Assembly (NCBI GenBank): GCA_004294855.1
Contig: SHOI01000003.1
Span: forward strand, 1,264 to 46,964
DNA from: Sphaerochaeta sp.
GTDB lineage: Bacteria; Spirochaetota; Spirochaetia; Sphaerochaetales; Sphaerochaetaceae
DNA length: 45,701 nt
Reading direction: 5' to 3'
A model generated the notes under the pieces. It was not told where the DNA came from and did no database searches. It saw only the letters and a program-made list of their open reading frames with translations. The position numbers and the translations under genes were made by a program. Positions 19,324-34,947 of this stretch are shown here, one piece after another. Position 1 is the stretch's first letter, and the number at the start of each line of letters is the position of its first letter.

Positions 19324-19492
19324 CTATAAATTCCATTCGATAAATTGTATCAGAAATGGCAAAGTGTTGCAAGCGGACCCCGCAGTTTTTCACAAAATAT
19401 ATATACTTTCAAGATAATGATTTATGCTCACATGAAACTGCTCATATGGAGAATGCTTGCACCGTCGTTCACTCAACGGTAGAATAGGTGGT

Positions 19493-20890
19493 ATGAGCGA
19501 CCAACAAACATCATATTATGAGTTCTGGCTGGAGACGGCAAAGAGGATTCAGGAAACCCTTCCGCCTCAGGAATTTTCCACTTGGTTCAGCCGAATCTCC
19601 TATCTCTCCTCCAAAAAAGGAGAGGTCACCCTCGCAGGTCCCAGCCAATTCGTCCTCGATACCGTAACGACCCGTTACCGATCGATCATCGCGAACACCC
19701 TCAGTGAACTTACCGGTGAGGAGATCGCCGTCGAGTTTGTCGTCTCCGACAAAGGAAAAAAAGCCGTCCGGCCGACGGACGGCGATGAAACCGCTGAAGA
19801 AGATCGGAAAGAGAAAAAAGCCGATGATCTTGCCAAGAAGATTTCCAAGCGGAAAAGCGAGGCGAATCTGAATCCCTCCTATGAATTCGAATCCTTCGTG
19901 CTTGGCGACAACTCCGCCTTTGCGTACAACGCGAGTCTGGCGATCGCAAAAAATCCGGGTTCGAGCTACAACCCCTGTTTGATCTATGGCGATGTGGGCC
20001 TCGGGAAGACCCATCTCCTCAGCTCGATCGGAAACTATATCCTCGATCATACCCCCGAATGCAAGGTGATGTACGTCACCGCCGAAACATTCACCAATGA
20101 ATTCATCGAGTCGATCGGAAGCCAGAAAACCCAGCAGTTCAAGAACAAGTTCAGAAACGTCGATGTTCTGTTGATCGATGACATCCACTTTCTTCAGGGG
20201 AAGGATTCCACCCAGGAAGAGCTCTTCCACACCTTCAACAACCTCTATGAAGCGAAGAAGCAGATGGTGTTCACCTGCGACCGCCCGATCAGCGAATTGA
20301 AGAACATCACCGATCGCCTTTCCTCCCGGTTCGAGCGGGGATTGAATGTCGATCTTCAACCGCCAAACTATGAAACGAGGGTCGCAATCCTTAAGAAGAA
20401 GCTTCAAGAACATGGTTCATCCCTCTCAGAGGATATCATCAACTATATCGCCTTCAATGTCGTAACCAACGTTCGAGACCTTGAATCCTCGCTGACGAAG
20501 CTTGTCGCCTACATGGACCTGATCGGGGAAGAGTTGACGTTCGAGAAAGCAAAGCAGCTTCTGGGGATTCTTCCCGCGATGGCCAACATCGCCCGGGATA
20601 CTCTATCCATCGGCGAGATCATCAAGACCGTCGGTGACTATTTCAACGTCTCGACGTTCGAGATGAAAGGGAAGAAGAAAAACAAGAGCCTGGTCCAGCC
20701 AAGGCAGATAGCGATGTACCTCGCCCGGCAAATCACCGACTTTTCAACAACGGAGATCGGGATGGAATTCGGCGGCCGAGATCATACCACGGTGATGTAT
20801 GCGAACAACCGGGTCGAATCGCTGATGAAAGGAGACGAGGCGTACGCGGCGACTGTCAATAAACTGCGTCGTCAATTGACCTCTTCCTGA
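19493..20890 (+). CDS. dnaA: Chromosomal replication initiator DnaA
   Basis: GDVGLGKTHLLSSIGN, LLIDDIHFLQGK, C-terminal GGRDHTTVMYANNRVE DnaA signature; ATG 19493 in frame. Confidence 0.98.
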   Translation: MSDQQTSYYEFWLETAKRIQETLPPQEFSTWFSRISYLSSKKGEVTLAGPSQFVLDTVTTRYRSIIANTLSELTGEEIAVEFVVSDKGKKAVRPTDGDETAEEDRKEKKADDLAKKISKRKSEANLNPSYEFESFVLGDNSAFAYNASLAIAKNPGSSYNPCLIYGDVGLGKTHLLSSIGNYILDHTPECKVMYVTAETFTNEFIESIGSQKTQQFKNKFRNVDVLLIDDIHFLQGKDSTQEELFHTFNNLYEAKKQMVFTCDRPISELKNITDRLSSRFERGLNVDLQPPNYETRVAILKKKLQEHGSSLSEDIINYIAFNVVTNVRDLESSLTKLVAYMDLIGEELTFEKAKQLLGILPAMANIARDTLSIGEIIKTVGDYFNVSTFEMKGKKKNKSLVQPRQIAMYLARQITDFSTTEIGMEFGGRDHTTVMYANNRVESLMKGDEAYAATVNKLRRQLTSS

Positions 20891-20901
20891 GCCGTATATC
20901 C

Positions 20902-21055
20902 TGGGGATAACCTCTTGGGAAAATGTGGACAACGCTTCAAGCCTGTGGATAGCTTATTATTGCTTGTGGATAAACTGTGGATATCTTTTGAACCTATTCA
21001 CAAGCTGGAAAAATTTAATAGGTTCTTTTACAATGAATTGTCTCAGTTATCCACA
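20902..21055. promoter_or_regulatory. oriC DnaA-box cluster in the dnaA-dnaN spacer
   Basis: Boxes on minus strand TTATCCCCA (20902-20910), TTGTCCACA (20924-20932), CTATCCACA (20944-20952), TTATCCACA (20965-20973), ATATCCACA (20976-20984); on plus strand CTATTCACA (20994-21002), TTATCCACA (21047-21055). Confidence 0.9.
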
Positions 21056-21064
21056 GTTTCTGTG

Positions 21065-21085
21065 CTATTATTACTATTATTACTG
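21065..21085. promoter_or_regulatory. DnaA-trio-like unwinding element
   Basis: Plus CTA TTA TTA CTA TTA TTA CTG, i.e. complementary strand 3'-GAT AAT AAT GAT AAT AAT GAC-5', 9 nt after TTATCCACA, continuing into AT-rich ATTAATAATAAAATA. Confidence 0.75.
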
Positions 21086-26797: not shown

Positions 26798-26815
26798 GTG
26801 TATCGCATGATACAC
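26798..26815. repeat. Perfect inverted repeat GTGTATC-GCAT-GATACAC
   Basis: 7-bp perfect arms read directly; possible operator. Confidence 0.55.
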
Positions 26816-26816
26816 T

Positions 26817-26832
26817 ACACTATATGTTGAGT
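26817..26832. promoter_or_regulatory. NrdR-box-like operator
   Basis: ACACTATATGTTGAGT matches acaCwAtATaTwGtgt at 14/16 positions, upstream of nrdD. Confidence 0.55.
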
Positions 26833-26968
26833 GTATAGGAAAAGGGAAGTTGGGTGAAACGCCCACGCGGTCCCGCCGCTGTGATGGGGAGCGATTGGAG
26901 ATGACCACTGGAGCGATCCGGGAAGGTTCCAAGAGCTGCGATCCTAAGCCAGAAGACCTTGCCTATAT
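26833..26968 (+). ncRNA. Cobalamin (B12) riboswitch
   Basis: GGGAAGTTGGGTGAAACGCCCACGCGGTCCCGCCGCTGTGATGGGGAGC...CCACTGG...GGGAAGG...TAAGCCAGAAGACCTTGCC; closing P1 stem TATAGG/CCTATA. Confidence 0.95.
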
Positions 26969-27049
26969 GGTCACGCCGCCACGGAGCATGGCAGGAGCGT
27001 GAGAGCCGACAGGCTCTTGTCTTCTTGTCGCTTCGGGCAAGGAGCAATC

Positions 27050-29119
27050 ATGGTTACCATTATCAAGCGTGATGGACGGGAGGTTTTCTGCGAGGCACGG
27101 AAGATCACCGACGCAATCTCGAAAGCGGCGCACGCCGCCGGCGAGCCGATCGATTCGGTCGCTCTTACCAATCGGGTGCTGGAGCGAATCTTACATCGAA
27201 CCGCCGTTGAAGTCGAGGAAATTCAAGACCTCGTCGAAGAGGCGCTCATCGAAGCGAACTACCCCAAGACAGCAAAAGCGTACATCCTCTACCGGAAGGA
27301 GCGGCAGCGGATTCGGGAAGGGAACGCCCTGATCAAGGCGACCCGGAACCTCTTCGATTCTTACCTTGAAGACAAAACCTGGCAGATCAAAGAAAACGCC
27401 AACGCCCGCAAGAGCGTCAACGGGATGAACAACTATATCCGCGAGCGGCTGACGGAAAGCTATTGGCTGAACGACATCTACCCAAAGACCATCAGGGAAG
27501 CTCATCTGGAAGGAACTCTCCACCTGCATGATCTGGGGTTCTTCGGACCCTACTGCTGCGGATGGGACCTTCGCCTGCTTCTGGAGAAGGGCTTCGGAGG
27601 GGTGGAGGGGAAGGTCTCCTCGAAACCGGCGAAGCACCTCCGTTCCTTTTTAGGCCAGATCGTCAACGCGACGTTCACCCTTCAAGGGGAGTGCGCCGGA
27701 GCTCAGGCGTGGTCCTCCTTCGATACCTACTGCGCTCCCTTCGTCCGCTCCGACAGCCTGGAGTACAAGGAGGTGAAGCAGGCGATCCAGGAGTTCGTCT
27801 TCAACCTCAATGTTCCGACCCGGGTGGGCTTCCAATGTCCCTTTTCCAACCTCACCTTCGACATCACCCCGCCGAAAACCCTCAGCGAGCAGCCGGTGAT
27901 CATCGGAGGGGCGCTCCAAGACACCTGCTACGGCGAGTATCAGGAGGAGATGGATCTGATCAACAAGGCGTTTTGCGAAGTGATGGAGGAGGGGGACGCC
28001 TCTTCCCGAGTCTTCACCTTTCCGATTCCCACCTACAACGTAACCAAGGAGTTTCCGTGGGAAAGCGAGGTCGTCGACGCGATCTTTTCGATGACCGCCA
28101 AATACGGGATTCCCTACTTCTCCAACTACGTAAGCAGCGACCTCAGCCCCGAGGACGCTCTGTCGATGTGCTGCCGGCTTCGCCTCGATACAAGCGAATT
28201 GCGCAAGCGCGGAGGCGGGCTCTTCGGTTCGAACCCCTTAACCGGCTCGATCGGGGTGGTGACAATCAACCTCAGTCGGCTCGCCTGGGAAAGCGCCGAT
28301 GAAAATGAGTTCAGGGAAAAGCTGTTGTCTGCCGCCCTGCTGGCCAAAGAGAGCCTTGAAATCAAGCGCAAGATCATCGAAGGAGAGACGGATCGGGGGA
28401 TGTATCCCTTCAGCAAAGTGTACCTTTCGAGCGTGAAGGAGAGCCAGGGGACCTACTGGGCGAACCACTTCTCCACGATCGGGGTGCTCGGAATGGAGGA
28501 GGCGTGCATCAACCTTCTGGGAAGCAGCCTGCTCGAGGATGCAGGGCAGGCGTTCGGACTGAGAACCCTTGCCTATCTTCGGGAAGTCATTCAAAGCTTC
28601 CAGGAGACGAGCGGCGGAGTCCTGTACAATCTGGAAGCCACCCCCGCCGAAGGGGCGAGCTACCGTCTGGCGAACCTCGACAGAAAAGCGTATCCCGAGA
28701 TCGTCACAGCGGGGGAGAAGGAACATTATTACACCAACTCCAGCCAACTGCCCGTCTCTTCCACCAAAGACATCTTTGAAGTGCTGGAGAAACAGGATGA
28801 GCTGCAGTGTCAGTACACCGGAGGAACGGTCCTCCACCTCTACCTCGACCAGCGGATCAAGGAGGCCGCCTTGGCGAAGCTTCTGGTCAAACGGGTGTTC
28901 TCCCGCTACAAGCTGCCCTATCTTTCCCTCACGCCGACCTTCTCCACCTGCACCGATCACGGGTATCTCGTCGGCGAACGGAAGACGTGCCCCCACTGCG
29001 GGAAGGCGACCGAGGTGTGGACCCGGGTGGTCGGGTATCTCAGGCCGGTTGAGGACTTCCATCCGGGAAAACAGGAGGAGCACTCCCAGCGCTCCTTCTT
29101 CAAGGCGGAGGCGGTATGA
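27050..29119 (+). CDS. nrdD: Anaerobic (class III) ribonucleoside-triphosphate reductase
   Basis: N-terminal ATP-cone, NYIRERLTESYWLNDIYP, C-terminal zinc motif CPHCG and glycyl-radical RVVGYLRPVEDFHPGK. Confidence 0.95.
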   Translation: MVTIIKRDGREVFCEARKITDAISKAAHAAGEPIDSVALTNRVLERILHRTAVEVEEIQDLVEEALIEANYPKTAKAYILYRKERQRIREGNALIKATRNLFDSYLEDKTWQIKENANARKSVNGMNNYIRERLTESYWLNDIYPKTIREAHLEGTLHLHDLGFFGPYCCGWDLRLLLEKGFGGVEGKVSSKPAKHLRSFLGQIVNATFTLQGECAGAQAWSSFDTYCAPFVRSDSLEYKEVKQAIQEFVFNLNVPTRVGFQCPFSNLTFDITPPKTLSEQPVIIGGALQDTCYGEYQEEMDLINKAFCEVMEEGDASSRVFTFPIPTYNVTKEFPWESEVVDAIFSMTAKYGIPYFSNYVSSDLSPEDALSMCCRLRLDTSELRKRGGGLFGSNPLTGSIGVVTINLSRLAWESADENEFREKLLSAALLAKESLEIKRKIIEGETDRGMYPFSKVYLSSVKESQGTYWANHFSTIGVLGMEEACINLLGSSLLEDAGQAFGLRTLAYLREVIQSFQETSGGVLYNLEATPAEGASYRLANLDRKAYPEIVTAGEKEHYYTNSSQLPVSSTKDIFEVLEKQDELQCQYTGGTVLHLYLDQRIKEAALAKLLVKRVFSRYKLPYLSLTPTFSTCTDHGYLVGERKTCPHCGKATEVWTRVVGYLRPVEDFHPGKQEEHSQRSFFKAEAV

Positions 29120-29799
29120 TCCGGGGGATCGAGGGCGTCTCCTTCCTCGATTACCCCGGCTTGCTCAGTTGCGTCCTCTTTCTCGGAGGATGCAACTATG
29201 ATTGCTTCTACTGCCACAATCGCTCTCTTCTGCAACCGGGAGAGGAAGTTCTCTCACTCGGGGAGGTCGAATCCTTTCTCGCCGAGCGAAAAGGCCTGCT
29301 CGATGCCTTGGTGGTCAGCGGAGGAGAGCCGACGCTGCACAAGGAAATCACATCATTGTTTTCGATCGGAAAAGGGTTGGGGTATCTGACGAAGCTGGAT
29401 ACCAACGGCTCAAGGCCCGAGATCCTCAAAACCCTCTTGGAAGCCGATCTCCTTGATTACGTGGCTCTGGACATCAAGGCGCCGCCGGAGCGGTATCGGG
29501 AGATCTCAGGCGGCTCCTTCCTGCCGGTGTTTGAATCGCTGAACCTGCTGAAGCGACACAGGGAACATAAGAAGACATTCTCCTTCGAGATCCGGACCAC
29601 GATGGCCTCGACGTTGGGGAGGGAGGATATTGAACAATTGGCCTCCATTGTGGGAGAGGTCCCCCGATGGGTTCTCAACGAGTACCGGGTCCCGAGAACC
29701 TTCAAAGAGGAGGATCGGGACCGGGTGCATCAAAAGTATCTTTGTAAAGATGAATTACAAGGACTCTTGCCCCTTCATCCCGCTTTGTGCCTAGGGTAG
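29116..29799 (+). CDS. nrdG: Anaerobic ribonucleotide reductase activating protein (radical SAM)
   Basis: LGGCNYDCFYCHN CxxxCxxC radical SAM motif; ATGA overlap with nrdD stop. Confidence 0.92.
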   Translation: MIRGIEGVSFLDYPGLLSCVLFLGGCNYDCFYCHNRSLLQPGEEVLSLGEVESFLAERKGLLDALVVSGGEPTLHKEITSLFSIGKGLGYLTKLDTNGSRPEILKTLLEADLLDYVALDIKAPPERYREISGGSFLPVFESLNLLKRHREHKKTFSFEIRTTMASTLGREDIEQLASIVGEVPRWVLNEYRVPRTFKEEDRDRVHQKYLCKDELQGLLPLHPALCLG

Positions 29800-30912
29800 C
29801 GACAAGATTCGTTCCCGCTCCCAGGGTAGATCAGGTTTTCCGAAGTGTCCGTAGTTGGTCGTCCGCCTGTAGATCGGAGCCCGTAAATTGAGCGCTTCGA
29901 TCATCCCCTTGGGGGTGAGGTCGAAGTTCCTTCGGATAATCCGAATCAACTCATCTTCGCTCATCACTCCCGTGCAGAACGTCTCGACGGCGATCGAGAT
30001 CGGTTCGGCGATCCCGATCGCATAGGAGAGCTGAACCTCGCACACCGTACAGAGGCCGCTGCGAACCAGATTGGTCGCGATCCACCGGGCCAGGTACGCT
30101 CCGCTTCGATCCACTTTGGAGGGATCCTTGCCGCTGAACGCGCCGCCGCCGTGATGCCCGATTCCGCCGTAGGTGTCGACGACAATCTTGCGTCCGGTGA
30201 GACCGGTATCGCCGGCCGGCCCTCCGATGACGAAGCGGCCGGTGGGGTTGATGTACAATGCGGTGTTCCTGTCGAAGAAGCCGCTGGGTTCCAGAGTGGG
30301 GATGATGACCTCCTTTTTGAGGAAGTCCACGAGATCCTTATGGGCGATCTCTTCGCCGTGCTGGTGGCTGAGCACCACCGCGTCGATATGGTGGGGTCTG
30401 CCGTGTCGGTAGGCGAGGGAGATCTGGCCTTTCGCGTCGGGGCGAAGGAAGTCCGTCTTCCGGCGGACAGAAGCTGCCCGTTTCAACAGTTCGTGCACCC
30501 AGTAGACCGAAGCGGGCATCAGGACGGGGGTTTCTTTGGTCGCATAGCCGAACACCATCCCCTGGTCGCCGGCCCCGTCGTGATCCACCCCCAGGGCGAT
30601 GTCCGCCGATTGCCGGCCGATCAGATTGGTGACGGAAAGGCTTTCTGCGTCAAAGCCGATTCCTTCGATCGTGTAGCCGATCCGCCGTACCGTATCGCGG
30701 ACGATTGCATCAACATCAATGTCCGCATTCGTGGTGATCTCCCCCCCGACGATCACCGTATTCGTGGTGGCGAAAACCTCGCAGGCGACCCGGCTGTTCG
30801 GATCGCCTTCCAGACATGCATCCAGGATCGCATCGGCGATCAGGTCGCAGACCTTGTCGGGGTGTCCTTCACCGACCGACTCCGAAGTAAGAACACGGTT
30901 TCTTAAAAACAT
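29791..30912 (-). CDS. metK: S-adenosylmethionine synthetase
   Basis: TSESVGEGHPDKVCDLIADAILD, GAGDQGMVFGYA, GGGAFSGKDPSKVDRSGAY. Confidence 0.97.
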   Translation of the reverse strand: MFLRNRVLTSESVGEGHPDKVCDLIADAILDACLEGDPNSRVACEVFATTNTVIVGGEITTNADIDVDAIVRDTVRRIGYTIEGIGFDAESLSVTNLIGRQSADIALGVDHDGAGDQGMVFGYATKETPVLMPASVYWVHELLKRAASVRRKTDFLRPDAKGQISLAYRHGRPHHIDAVVLSHQHGEEIAHKDLVDFLKKEVIIPTLEPSGFFDRNTALYINPTGRFVIGGPAGDTGLTGRKIVVDTYGGIGHHGGGAFSGKDPSKVDRSGAYLARWIATNLVRSGLCTVCEVQLSYAIGIAEPISIAVETFCTGVMSEDELIRIIRRNFDLTPKGMIEALNLRAPIYRRTTNYGHFGKPDLPWERERILSLP

Positions 30913-31025
30913 AAAACCCTTCCTGCATGCGGAAGGGGGAACTCAAAGCAAAATCTGCTGCGCTCCCCTTTTAGCATCGTTGTTTATTGACGCCAGCAAG
31001 CCGGGAGGCCATCAAATCGACGTCA
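30913..31025 (-). promoter_or_regulatory. Candidate metK leader RNA with SD-sequestor and competing anti-sequestor hairpins
   Basis: Minus strand: CCCTTCC-gcatgca-GGAAGGG (30917-30937) encloses the SD; AAGGGG (30965-30970) can instead pair CCCCTT (30933-30938). Confidence 0.5.
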
Positions 31026-31032
31026 TGGACAG

Positions 31033-31061
31033 ATAGTAGCACGCTTGAGCTCTTTGGGCAA
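31033..31061 (-). promoter_or_regulatory. Candidate metK promoter TTGCCC-N17-TACTAT
   Basis: 4/6 -35, 4/6 -10, 17-bp spacing on the minus strand. Confidence 0.4.
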
Positions 31062-32156: not shown

Positions 32157-33446
32157 ATGAGCGAATATCGGATCATCGGCGGAAACGCGGCAAGTGGCGA
32201 GGTGTTGATCAGTGGCAACAAGAACGCCGCCCTTCCTTGCCTTGCGGCGACTTTGCTCACCGACGATCCGATCCGTCTCTCCAACGTTCCCGAAATTGAA
32301 GATGTAAAGGTGATGATCGCCCTGCTGGAAAGTCTGGGTTCTTCCGTTGTCCGCGAAGGCAAAGGGGTGTATACGATCCAATCCGGAAGCGGCGGGGCGA
32401 GCCTGCCAAAAGATCTGGTCCAAGCGGTCCGCGGTTCGATCCTCCTGCTCGGGCCGCTACTCGCTCGGAACGGCGAAGTGACGATTCCTCCCCCCGGAGG
32501 GGATGTGATCGGCTTAAGAAGATTGGACACCCACTTTATCGGGTTGTCCGCATTGGGAGCAAGCGCCAAGCTCAATGAAGGCGGGTCGCTTCATTTCAAG
32601 ATTACCGGGAGAGGCCTGATCGGGAATGATATCTTCCTTGATGAAGCTTCGGTGACCGCCACCGAGAACGTGATCATGGCCGCTTCCCTCGCCGAAGGAG
32701 AAACGACGGTCTTCAATGCGGCGTGCGAGCCGCATGTCCAGGATCTTTGCCATCTTTTAGTGCGGATGGGCTCCTCGATCGAGGGGATCGGTTCAAACCG
32801 CCTGATCATCACCGGATCGAAGAAGCTCACTGGAGCTTCCTATACGCTCGGCTTCGACTACATGGAAGCGGGCTCGTTCATCGGCCTGGCCGCCGCCACC
32901 GGGGGCGAAGTGCTGATCAAGGGGATCGATCATCGGCATTTGAGGATTCTCCATCTGGGTTTTGAGCGGATCGGCATCGCTTGGGAACATGACGGACCCT
33001 CTTCGATTCTCGTCCCCAAAAAACAACGAAAAGTTCTTGTCAAAGAGGTGGGAGGGCAGACCACCAAGATCGACAGCGCTCCGTGGCCGGGATTTCCGGC
33101 GGATCTGCTGAGCATCCTCACCGTTGCAGCGACCCAATCCCGCGGTTCGATTCTCATCCACGAGAAAATGTTCGAGTCGCGGATGTACTTCATCGACTGG
33201 CTGATCCGGATGGGTGCGGACATCATCCTCTGCGACCCTCACCGGGCGGTGGTTCAGGGGCCGAGCGTTCTGATCGGATCGGTCTTGAGCAGTCCCGATG
33301 TCCGGGCGGGGATGGCCCTCGTCATCGCAGCGGCCGCCGCCCGGGGGGAGTCGGTCATTCAAAATATCTACCAGATCGAGCGGGGATATGAGAATCTGAG
33401 TGAAAAGCTGACCTCGTTGGGAATCGACATGGTTCGAAGCGGTTAG
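32157..33446 (+). CDS. murA: UDP-N-acetylglucosamine 1-carboxyvinyltransferase
   Basis: SGNKNAALPCLAATLLTDDPIRLSNVPEIEDV, DYMEAGSFIGLAA; 429 aa. Confidence 0.93.
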   Translation: MSEYRIIGGNAASGEVLISGNKNAALPCLAATLLTDDPIRLSNVPEIEDVKVMIALLESLGSSVVREGKGVYTIQSGSGGASLPKDLVQAVRGSILLLGPLLARNGEVTIPPPGGDVIGLRRLDTHFIGLSALGASAKLNEGGSLHFKITGRGLIGNDIFLDEASVTATENVIMAASLAEGETTVFNAACEPHVQDLCHLLVRMGSSIEGIGSNRLIITGSKKLTGASYTLGFDYMEAGSFIGLAAATGGEVLIKGIDHRHLRILHLGFERIGIAWEHDGPSSILVPKKQRKVLVKEVGGQTTKIDSAPWPGFPADLLSILTVAATQSRGSILIHEKMFESRMYFIDWLIRMGADIILCDPHRAVVQGPSVLIGSVLSSPDVRAGMALVIAAAAARGESVIQNIYQIERGYENLSEKLTSLGIDMVRSG

Positions 33447-33471
33447 ACGTTTTTTCTTTTTTGTGCACAAG

Positions 33472-33818
33472 TTATCCACAAGGATACTAAACACCCTATA
33501 ACCCCCAAGAAACAGATAAGAAAAACAAAAGGGGCGCCGTCTAAAAATACAGAGATAAGCTATCTGTTAAGTTTTTATATTAAATAAAAATAAACTCTTG
33601 TTTAGTGGTTTGTTTTACTCTAAAACCGATATAAGTTTTATGTGGTTTTTAGTAGGTTGGACACAACTTAACGGAACTCCCTCTACCCAGCGTATCCACA
33701 AGTTGTCCACAGGCTGTACAGAAGAGAAAAACATCATGTAATTACCTTGATAGCGAGAGTTAGAGGTGACTTTCCCGCTGGATCCCGCCGTCTTGTTCAT
33801 CTGATAACATGTGGATAG
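33472..33818. promoter_or_regulatory. Secondary DnaA-box cluster
   Basis: TTATCCACA (33472-33480), GTATCCACA (33692-33700), TTGTCCACA (33703-33711), and TGTGGATAG = CTATCCACA on minus (33810-33818); also TTGTGCACA (33461-33469). Confidence 0.65.
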
Positions 33819-33825
33819 CTTGTCC

Positions 33826-34947
33826 CTACTGCTCTTCTTCGGCAAACTCCTGTTCATCGATCTCGATCCAGCGATTGTTTTTTGCATGAAGCGATGCCCG
33901 CCTCAGGACTGAAAAAAGCTGGCGGACATTTCCCGGCCAGTGGTAGCTTTGAAGCAGCTTGATCGATGTGTCGGTTACCGGGCGTCGTTCGGAGAGGGTC
34001 GAATAAAAATGCCGGATGAGCAGGGGGATGTCTTCCTTGTGCTCCCTTAGCGGCGGCATATGGATCTGGGCATCAGTGATCCGGTAGAAGAAATCTTTGC
34101 GCATCTGTCCTTCGGCGACCAGCCTTAAGAGCTTTTCATTGCTGGCGGTGACGAGTCTGAAATCGCTTGAGCGGAGCTTCGTATCGCCGAGGCGCCGATA
34201 TTCCCCGTTCTCCAGCAAACGAAGCATATGGGCTTGGAAGATGAGCGGCAGATTCTCCACCTCATCCAGAAAGAGGGTGGAGTTGTTTGCCTGGCATAGG
34301 AGGCCGATGAGTTCGTTGGTCGCGTCGGTGAACGCTCCTTTGGCATGTCCGAAGAACACCGATTTGCCGACAGCGTCATTGAGCAGCGAGCAGTTGATGG
34401 CGATGATGTGCCGCTGGGGAAAACGACGGCGGTGAAGATACTCGGCGGCGAGCTCTTTTCCCGTCCCGGTTTCGCCGTAGATGTGCACCGGGCAATCTTT
34501 CGTCGCATAGAACTCAAGCAGGCTTCTCAGCTCGACCATCAGCTTGCTCTCACCGACAAGACCGCTGGACCAGACGGGAGATGATTCTTTGACGAGTTCC
34601 GTCTTTCCGATTCGGCAGATCTCTTGGAACACCTCCTCCCAGTTGACGGTTCGTTTGTGCATCAACCGGATCTTCAGATCATAGGGGTTGCGGAAGTTTT
34701 GAACCGGCTCATCCCGGGTGAAGATGATAATCGGGGCGGAGCATCGACTTTCACCGAGGTGGCGGAGAATTTGGCCGGCGGTAATCTTCGGCTCTTTGGT
34801 GTCGATGATGATCATGTCGGGAGTCTCGGATTCAAGGGCTTCAAAGAGCGCAGCCGGCAGGTTGAAGAGCTGAAGATATGGTTGGGTAAACTGTAGCTTA
34901 AACCGCTCCTTGGTTCTCCAGTCCAAGGAGAGTACGAATAGAGACAT
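33826..34947 (-). CDS. Sigma54-activator-like AAA+ protein with receiver-like N-terminus, no C-terminal HTH, GAFTDA in loop 1
   Basis: GETGTGKELAAEYLH Walker A, GHAKGAFTDATNE, TLFLDEVENLPL Walker B, YHWPGNVRQL; protein ends soon after at WIEIDEQEFAEEEQ. Confidence 0.9.
   Translation of the reverse strand: MSLFVLSLDWRTKERFKLQFTQPYLQLFNLPAALFEALESETPDMIIIDTKEPKITAGQILRHLGESRCSAPIIIFTRDEPVQNFRNPYDLKIRLMHKRTVNWEEVFQEICRIGKTELVKESSPVWSSGLVGESKLMVELRSLLEFYATKDCPVHIYGETGTGKELAAEYLHRRRFPQRHIIAINCSLLNDAVGKSVFFGHAKGAFTDATNELIGLLCQANNSTLFLDEVENLPLIFQAHMLRLLENGEYRRLGDTKLRSSDFRLVTASNEKLLRLVAEGQMRKDFFYRITDAQIHMPPLREHKEDIPLLIRHFYSTLSERRPVTDTSIKLLQSYHWPGNVRQLFSVLRRASLHAKNNRWIEIDEQEFAEEEQ

Follow-up and report, generated by a model that had tools for sequence, protein, structure and literature searches.

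The window, by which we mean the whole stretch of 45,701 nucleotides that was analysed, belongs to an assembly of 2.2 Mb in 270 contigs. The closest relatives of its MurA were Spirochaetales MAGs (90-91% identity), followed by Sphaerochaeta species at 73-74%, and judging from these relatives the DNA is that of a Sphaerochaeta-type spirochaete MAG. Profile-based gene identification recognised dnaA, dnaN, recF, yidC, nrdD, metK and murA. The gap after murA was described in the initial annotation as lying between two gene 3' ends, which is correct, as murA and the next gene, encoding a sigma-54 activator, are convergent (Table 1). The activator has AAA+ and lid domains, and neither a receiver nor a C-terminal DNA-binding domain was recognised in it.

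Four DnaA boxes had been reported within 380 bp of this gap, one perfect and three with a single mismatch. All four were found again at the same positions, as was the AT-rich core (about 33567-33595), and the proposed distance of about 12 kb to oriC held as well, the boxes being 12.4 kb from those between dnaA and dnaN. To the four we added a degenerate partner box (TTGTGCACA). The dnaA-dnaN gap held the second box cluster of the window, and no further clusters were present. A promoter role had been called not obvious here, with which we agree: the site is convergent, and promoter and terminator consensus patterns were sought in the window's murA gap without a match, by which both functions were ruled out. 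A structured RNA 3' of murA was also ruled out, the gap having no Rfam match. Elsewhere in the window, a Cobalamin riboswitch (26808-26979, +, 81.5 bits) stood directly 5' of nrdD (26999-29119), which codes for the class III ribonucleotide reductase, and a weak SAM_alpha riboswitch-like match (30950-31034, -, 26.1 bits at a gathering score of 36) was located upstream of metK (29791-30912, -).

Table 1. Features of the window around dnaA and in the gap downstream of murA
Feature	Position	Strand	Remarks
M1-like palindrome upstream of dnaA	19400..19424		No adjoining DnaA boxes in Sphaerochaeta; box-flanked in other families (module D)
oriC proper	20902..21082		dnaA-dnaN box cluster and DnaA-trio run CTATTATTACTATTATTA, 9 bp after box at 21047
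murA	32157..33446	+	TIGR01072, E 9e-140; conserved neighbour of the DnaA-box element
Degenerate DnaA box TTGTGCACA	33461-33469	+	Array A; 2 mismatches; 11 bp before perfect box
Perfect DnaA box TTATCCACA	33472-33480	+	Array A
Array A (TTGTGCACA and TTATCCACA)	33461..33480	+	Head to tail, 11 bp apart
M1, AT-rich 25-bp palindrome TAAGTTTTTATATTAAATAAAAATA	33568..33592 (centre 33580)		Putative IHF/HU-type dyad site, by motif
M2, TATAAG...TTTTTAGTAGGTTGGA	33626..33670		Second conserved stretch; Sphaerochaetaceae only
One-mismatch DnaA box GTATCCACA	33692-33700	+	Array B
One-mismatch DnaA box TTGTCCACA	33703-33711	+	Array B
Array B (GTATCCACA and TTGTCCACA)	33692..33711	+	Boxes 11 bp apart; on the strand of array A and 220/231 bp from it
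Box C, inverted, one mismatch CTATCCACA	33810-33818	-	107 bp after array B
Sigma-54 activator AAA+ gene	33826..34947	-	PF00158; convergent neighbour of the element

Box density and conservation downstream of murA

Perfect boxes were rare, with 12 in the whole 2.2-Mb assembly, 3 of these within the window. In a 400-kb sample from the complete congener G005, 70 boxes had one mismatch or none, and a single one was perfect. At this density, which was taken from sampled stretches, 0.065 boxes with at most one mismatch are expected per 380 bp, and the Poisson probability of four is about 7e-7. Furthermore, the perfect boxes within 100 kb around dnaA in eight near-complete congeners were almost confined to the dnaA-dnaN gap and the few hundred bp after murA, the exception being one extra perfect box 0.5 kb further on in G012. 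A similar box density elsewhere would have spoken against the initial annotation; the murA gap stood far above the background in both the G005 sample and the eight congeners.

Conservation in relatives had been proposed as another check, and the box arrays, their spacing and the central palindrome were indeed kept across spirochaete families. In each of the 25 congeners with sequence, the first 75 bp or so beyond the murA stop contained at least one box, and two boxes on the same strand, neither with more than one mismatch, were present downstream of murA. Two same-strand arrays were also present in most of the family and in many other Spirochaetia families. An array spacing of 233 bp was common in the genus, as was one of 223 bp in the family's other genera, and nearly all elements fell between 204 and 237 bp. 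When the genomes were searched as a whole, two perfect boxes 209-237 bp apart were found in 87 of 297 Spirochaetia genomes, not every match being at murA, as some were upstream of dnaA or beside jag. For example, the paired-box pattern of L204-L207, L209, L210 and L250, all from other spirochaete families, adjoined a gene that we take to be jag-like from a reading of its protein, without a profile. In several families, murA and the element were separated by 2.6-4.5 kb of other genes, and the element stayed with the gene block on its far side, presumably PspA-like and STAS-domain genes (named by reading the sequence, without a profile). Inverted box C followed array B at 107-108 bp in about ten relatives. 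Treponema- and Borrelia-type genomes had no such element after murA. By sequence comparison the observation is confirmed, and the conserved element extends well beyond the window.

The central palindrome and the sole HU/IHF-family protein

In an alignment of 40 elements, M1 lay between the arrays with a profile of roughly YAAnTnnWTR.....WAAnnAnTTR, the self-complementarity of which peaked about one centre. The M1 of the window was recovered by a profile that had been built from other families (score 16.5, shuffle p 0.005). With leave-family-out profiles, the best-scoring site coincided with the aligned position in 28 of the 40 elements, while 12 were not re-found there; scores were weak in some Sphaerochaeta, and several fitted better in a register 4 bp away. 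As background, one site scoring at least 14 occurred in a 400-kb sample. The leave-family-out scans, the shuffles and independent sites upstream of dnaA ruled out that M1 was an artefact of MAFFT or simply AT-rich sequence. More M1-like palindromes, with no perfect DnaA box close by, were noticed at about 11519 in the window and, in a similar place, about 10.1-10.3 kb left of dnaN in G001, G005, G012, G018 and G020.

Both halves of M1 read AAN4TTR, with kink steps 9 bp apart. The IHF consensus is WATCAANNNNTTR, and complexes of IHF and HU have kinks 9 bp apart. By motif and kink spacing alone, M1 looks like two inverted IHF-type half-sites, and another dimeric factor could bind it instead. Each Sphaerochaeta genome searched had one HU/IHF-family gene. 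The best models for its product were those of IHF-alpha, below the cut-offs, and the nearest solved structures were IHF and Borrelia Hbb (2np2), the latter being its closest solved spirochaete relative. Since a single gene of this family would yield a homodimer, a symmetric site would be favoured, and we infer that M1 may be the site of this sole IHF/Hbb-like protein. Hbb binds near the Borrelia origin. A literature search for the Borrelia Hbb binding site yielded no paper; the Borrelia-type genome examined was without the murA element.

The distances from the boxes to the M1 centre were mostly near 85, 95, 106, 116 and 126 bp, i.e. in steps of about 10.5 bp. Rayleigh tests at 10.5 bp, to which each family or genome contributed a single value, gave p of about 1e-4 for the arms upstream of dnaA, and 1.5e-4 and 6e-4 for the left and right arms of the murA element; a looser set that kept outlying elements gave 1.6e-3 and 1e-2. 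These values ignore shared ancestry and the choice of box within an array and are indicative only.

Replication origin and rival roles

DnaA-trios, which follow a DnaA box, are part of the basal unwinding system (PMC8287927). In 9/9 genomes, a box in the dnaA-dnaN gap preceded a run of 5-7 trios (6 in the window), in most cases by 9 bp, whereas no trio array was present at the murA element in 9 genomes, where the longest run after any box was 1-3. Likewise, other families had runs of 3-6 trios between dnaA and dnaN and at most 1-3 at the module upstream of dnaA. In Sphaerochaeta, the GC3 skew of the plus-strand genes between dnaN and murA was -0.031, that of the right arm (-0.028) and not of the left arm (-0.157). 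In G040, the cumulative skew minimum was at the dnaA 3' end (1,162,723) and the element at 1,258,464, 96 kb inside the arm; in G059, the skew switched at dnaA and the element was 146 kb inside one arm. That the true oriC was in the murA gap had been suggested by a cumulative skew that was flat from dnaN to murA and had its raw minimum at +4.9 kb; this was ruled out by the gene-strand-corrected skew, the distant genomes and the DnaA-trios. With no trio array after a box, and away from the GC-skew switch, the murA element is not a replication origin. The initial annotation had offered an auxiliary origin element as one of its two possibilities. An auxiliary or former origin, as a second site of DnaA opening and helicase loading, would account for the box arrays, the AT-rich core and the occurrence of the same module upstream of dnaA in other families; but the murA element has no trio array, and the skew points to dnaA-dnaN as the place of initiation also in genomes whose element is 96-146 kb off. 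We regard this possibility as quite improbable. Other spirochaete families, with box-M1-box upstream of dnaA and trios in dnaA-dnaN, resemble the bipartite oriC of B. subtilis and H. pylori; the murA copy differs in lying outside oriC, at a distance of 12-146 kb.

That the boxes are a cluster in AT-rich intergenic sequence due to chance, or a relic, would fit the free divergence of the spacer outside M1 and M2, yet the boxes, their spacing and the palindrome hold amid this diverging sequence and the reversed-pattern control was 0/297; this explanation is barely credible, and conservation across families has already refuted it. DARS-like action, in which DnaA-ADP oligomers on the boxes would release ADP, recharge DnaA and promote initiation, is unlikely. 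It has in its favour that DARS1 and DARS2 are extra-origin DnaA-box elements, that DARS2 uses IHF as the murA element may use a putative IHF-type site, and that part of Sphaerochaeta has inverted box C. However, the DARS core consists of three boxes at fixed spacing, box I being inverted relative to II and III (PMC5742627), an order and orientation not found in the murA element, whose conserved boxes are on the same strand and whose inverted box is 107 bp away and missing in one subclade. A nucleoprotein anchor of DnaA and the IHF-like protein might have a role other than DnaA control, such as origin-region folding, segregation, or insulation of convergent murA and downstream genes. Most copies are in a convergent gap, the phased arms suggest a folded complex, and the linkage to murA and to the far-side gene block is conserved; nevertheless, some Sphaerochaeta (L033, L035-L037) have a next gene that runs in the same direction as murA, and the gap of the window carries no terminator-like signal. 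We hold an anchor to be not very likely.

A putative datA-like locus and its sister module at dnaA

The other possibility in the initial annotation, a DnaA titration or regulation locus, gained support from the conserved arrays, their spacing, the central palindrome and the promoter-free convergent location, and DnaA regulation as the probable role of the element is supported by these features. E. coli datA is a locus that inactivates or titrates DnaA (DDAH); it promotes hydrolysis of the ATP bound to DnaA, and its loss makes initiation untimely. It needs the same-direction boxes 2, 3 and 7, with an IHF site lying between boxes, within a length of 183-262 bp; being close to oriC, it gains in dosage shortly after initiation (PMC5742627). 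The murA element is likewise non-coding, a few hundred bp long, outside oriC and in the oriC-proximal part of one arm, and its arrays A and B form a cluster of same-direction boxes on either side of M1, a candidate IHF-type bend site. E. coli DnaA binds box pairs 2-3 bp apart best (PMC11317965), which is the spacing of the array boxes here. Furthermore, no Hda-family protein over the curated cut-off was found in 13 genomes. The datA architecture, the box-pair spacing and the lack of an Hda over the cut-off favour a datA-like sink or inactivation locus, and we rank this role, which we consider somewhat probable, over the anchor, DARS-like action, an auxiliary origin and chance, in that order. 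The element differs from datA in its locus and sequence, its arrays about 200-237 bp apart, its palindromic homodimer-type site and the Sphaerochaeta background without a detected Hda. It was not filed as datA, the locus being different and its hydrolysis activity putative.

According to the datA-like model, DnaA would bind the head-to-tail arrays A and B, and the single IHF/Hbb-like protein would bind M1 as a homodimer and bend it sharply. The bend would bring the helically phased arrays together and stabilise a DnaA oligomer, in which DnaA would be titrated or inactivated. As the element is near oriC on one arm, it would double soon after initiation; the doubled element would then sequester DnaA or promote hydrolysis of DnaA-bound ATP, resulting in less premature re-initiation. 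However, close linkage to oriC is not universal, the element being 146 and 96 kb away in G059 and G040, respectively. What we infer from this arrangement is that DnaA occupies the boxes, that the IHF-like protein binds M1, that the DNA loops, and that DnaA is sequestered or inactivated and not reactivated. The chromosomal clusters of B. subtilis and Streptomyces are comparable as DnaA boxes outside oriC, and the murA gap is such a cluster in that its box density is far above background; a conserved layout of two arrays with a central palindrome is not known from them. The B. subtilis and Streptomyces clusters are reported to repress untimely initiation (PMC5742627).

No published description of the murA element was found in a literature search with little coverage of subscription journals. 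As a DnaA-box locus outside oriC, it is notable for its class-wide breadth, its central palindrome and its sister module at dnaA. Little is known of how bacteria other than proteobacteria and Bacillus limit initiation, and the genomes searched here yielded no Hda. A compact, conserved and sequence-defined DnaA element of clear architecture offers a testable DnaA control locus for spirochaetes. It also suggests that regulation of the datA type, with an IHF-like bend, either is old or arose twice.

In nine other genomes (G039, G040, G042, G044, G045, G052, G056, G057 and G059), the M1 profile found strong sites (scores 12.6-20.8) upstream of dnaA. DnaA boxes on one strand flanked M1 in these nine; in G056, a box of at most one mismatch was present on just one of the two flanks. 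The dnaA promoter of Sphaerochaeta has kept M1 and lacks the boxes. Tentatively, Spirochaetia may use one standard nucleoprotein module at two chromosomal places, one 5' of dnaA and the other 3' of murA. The module consists of a palindrome for an IHF-like homodimer between DnaA boxes, all in helical register and with no unwinding element, and might serve as a lineage-specific control of DnaA standing in for Hda-based inactivation. As for dnaA itself, the TTG start listed for the window (19457-19493 region) is probably wrong, and an ATG at 19493 follows a plausible promoter.
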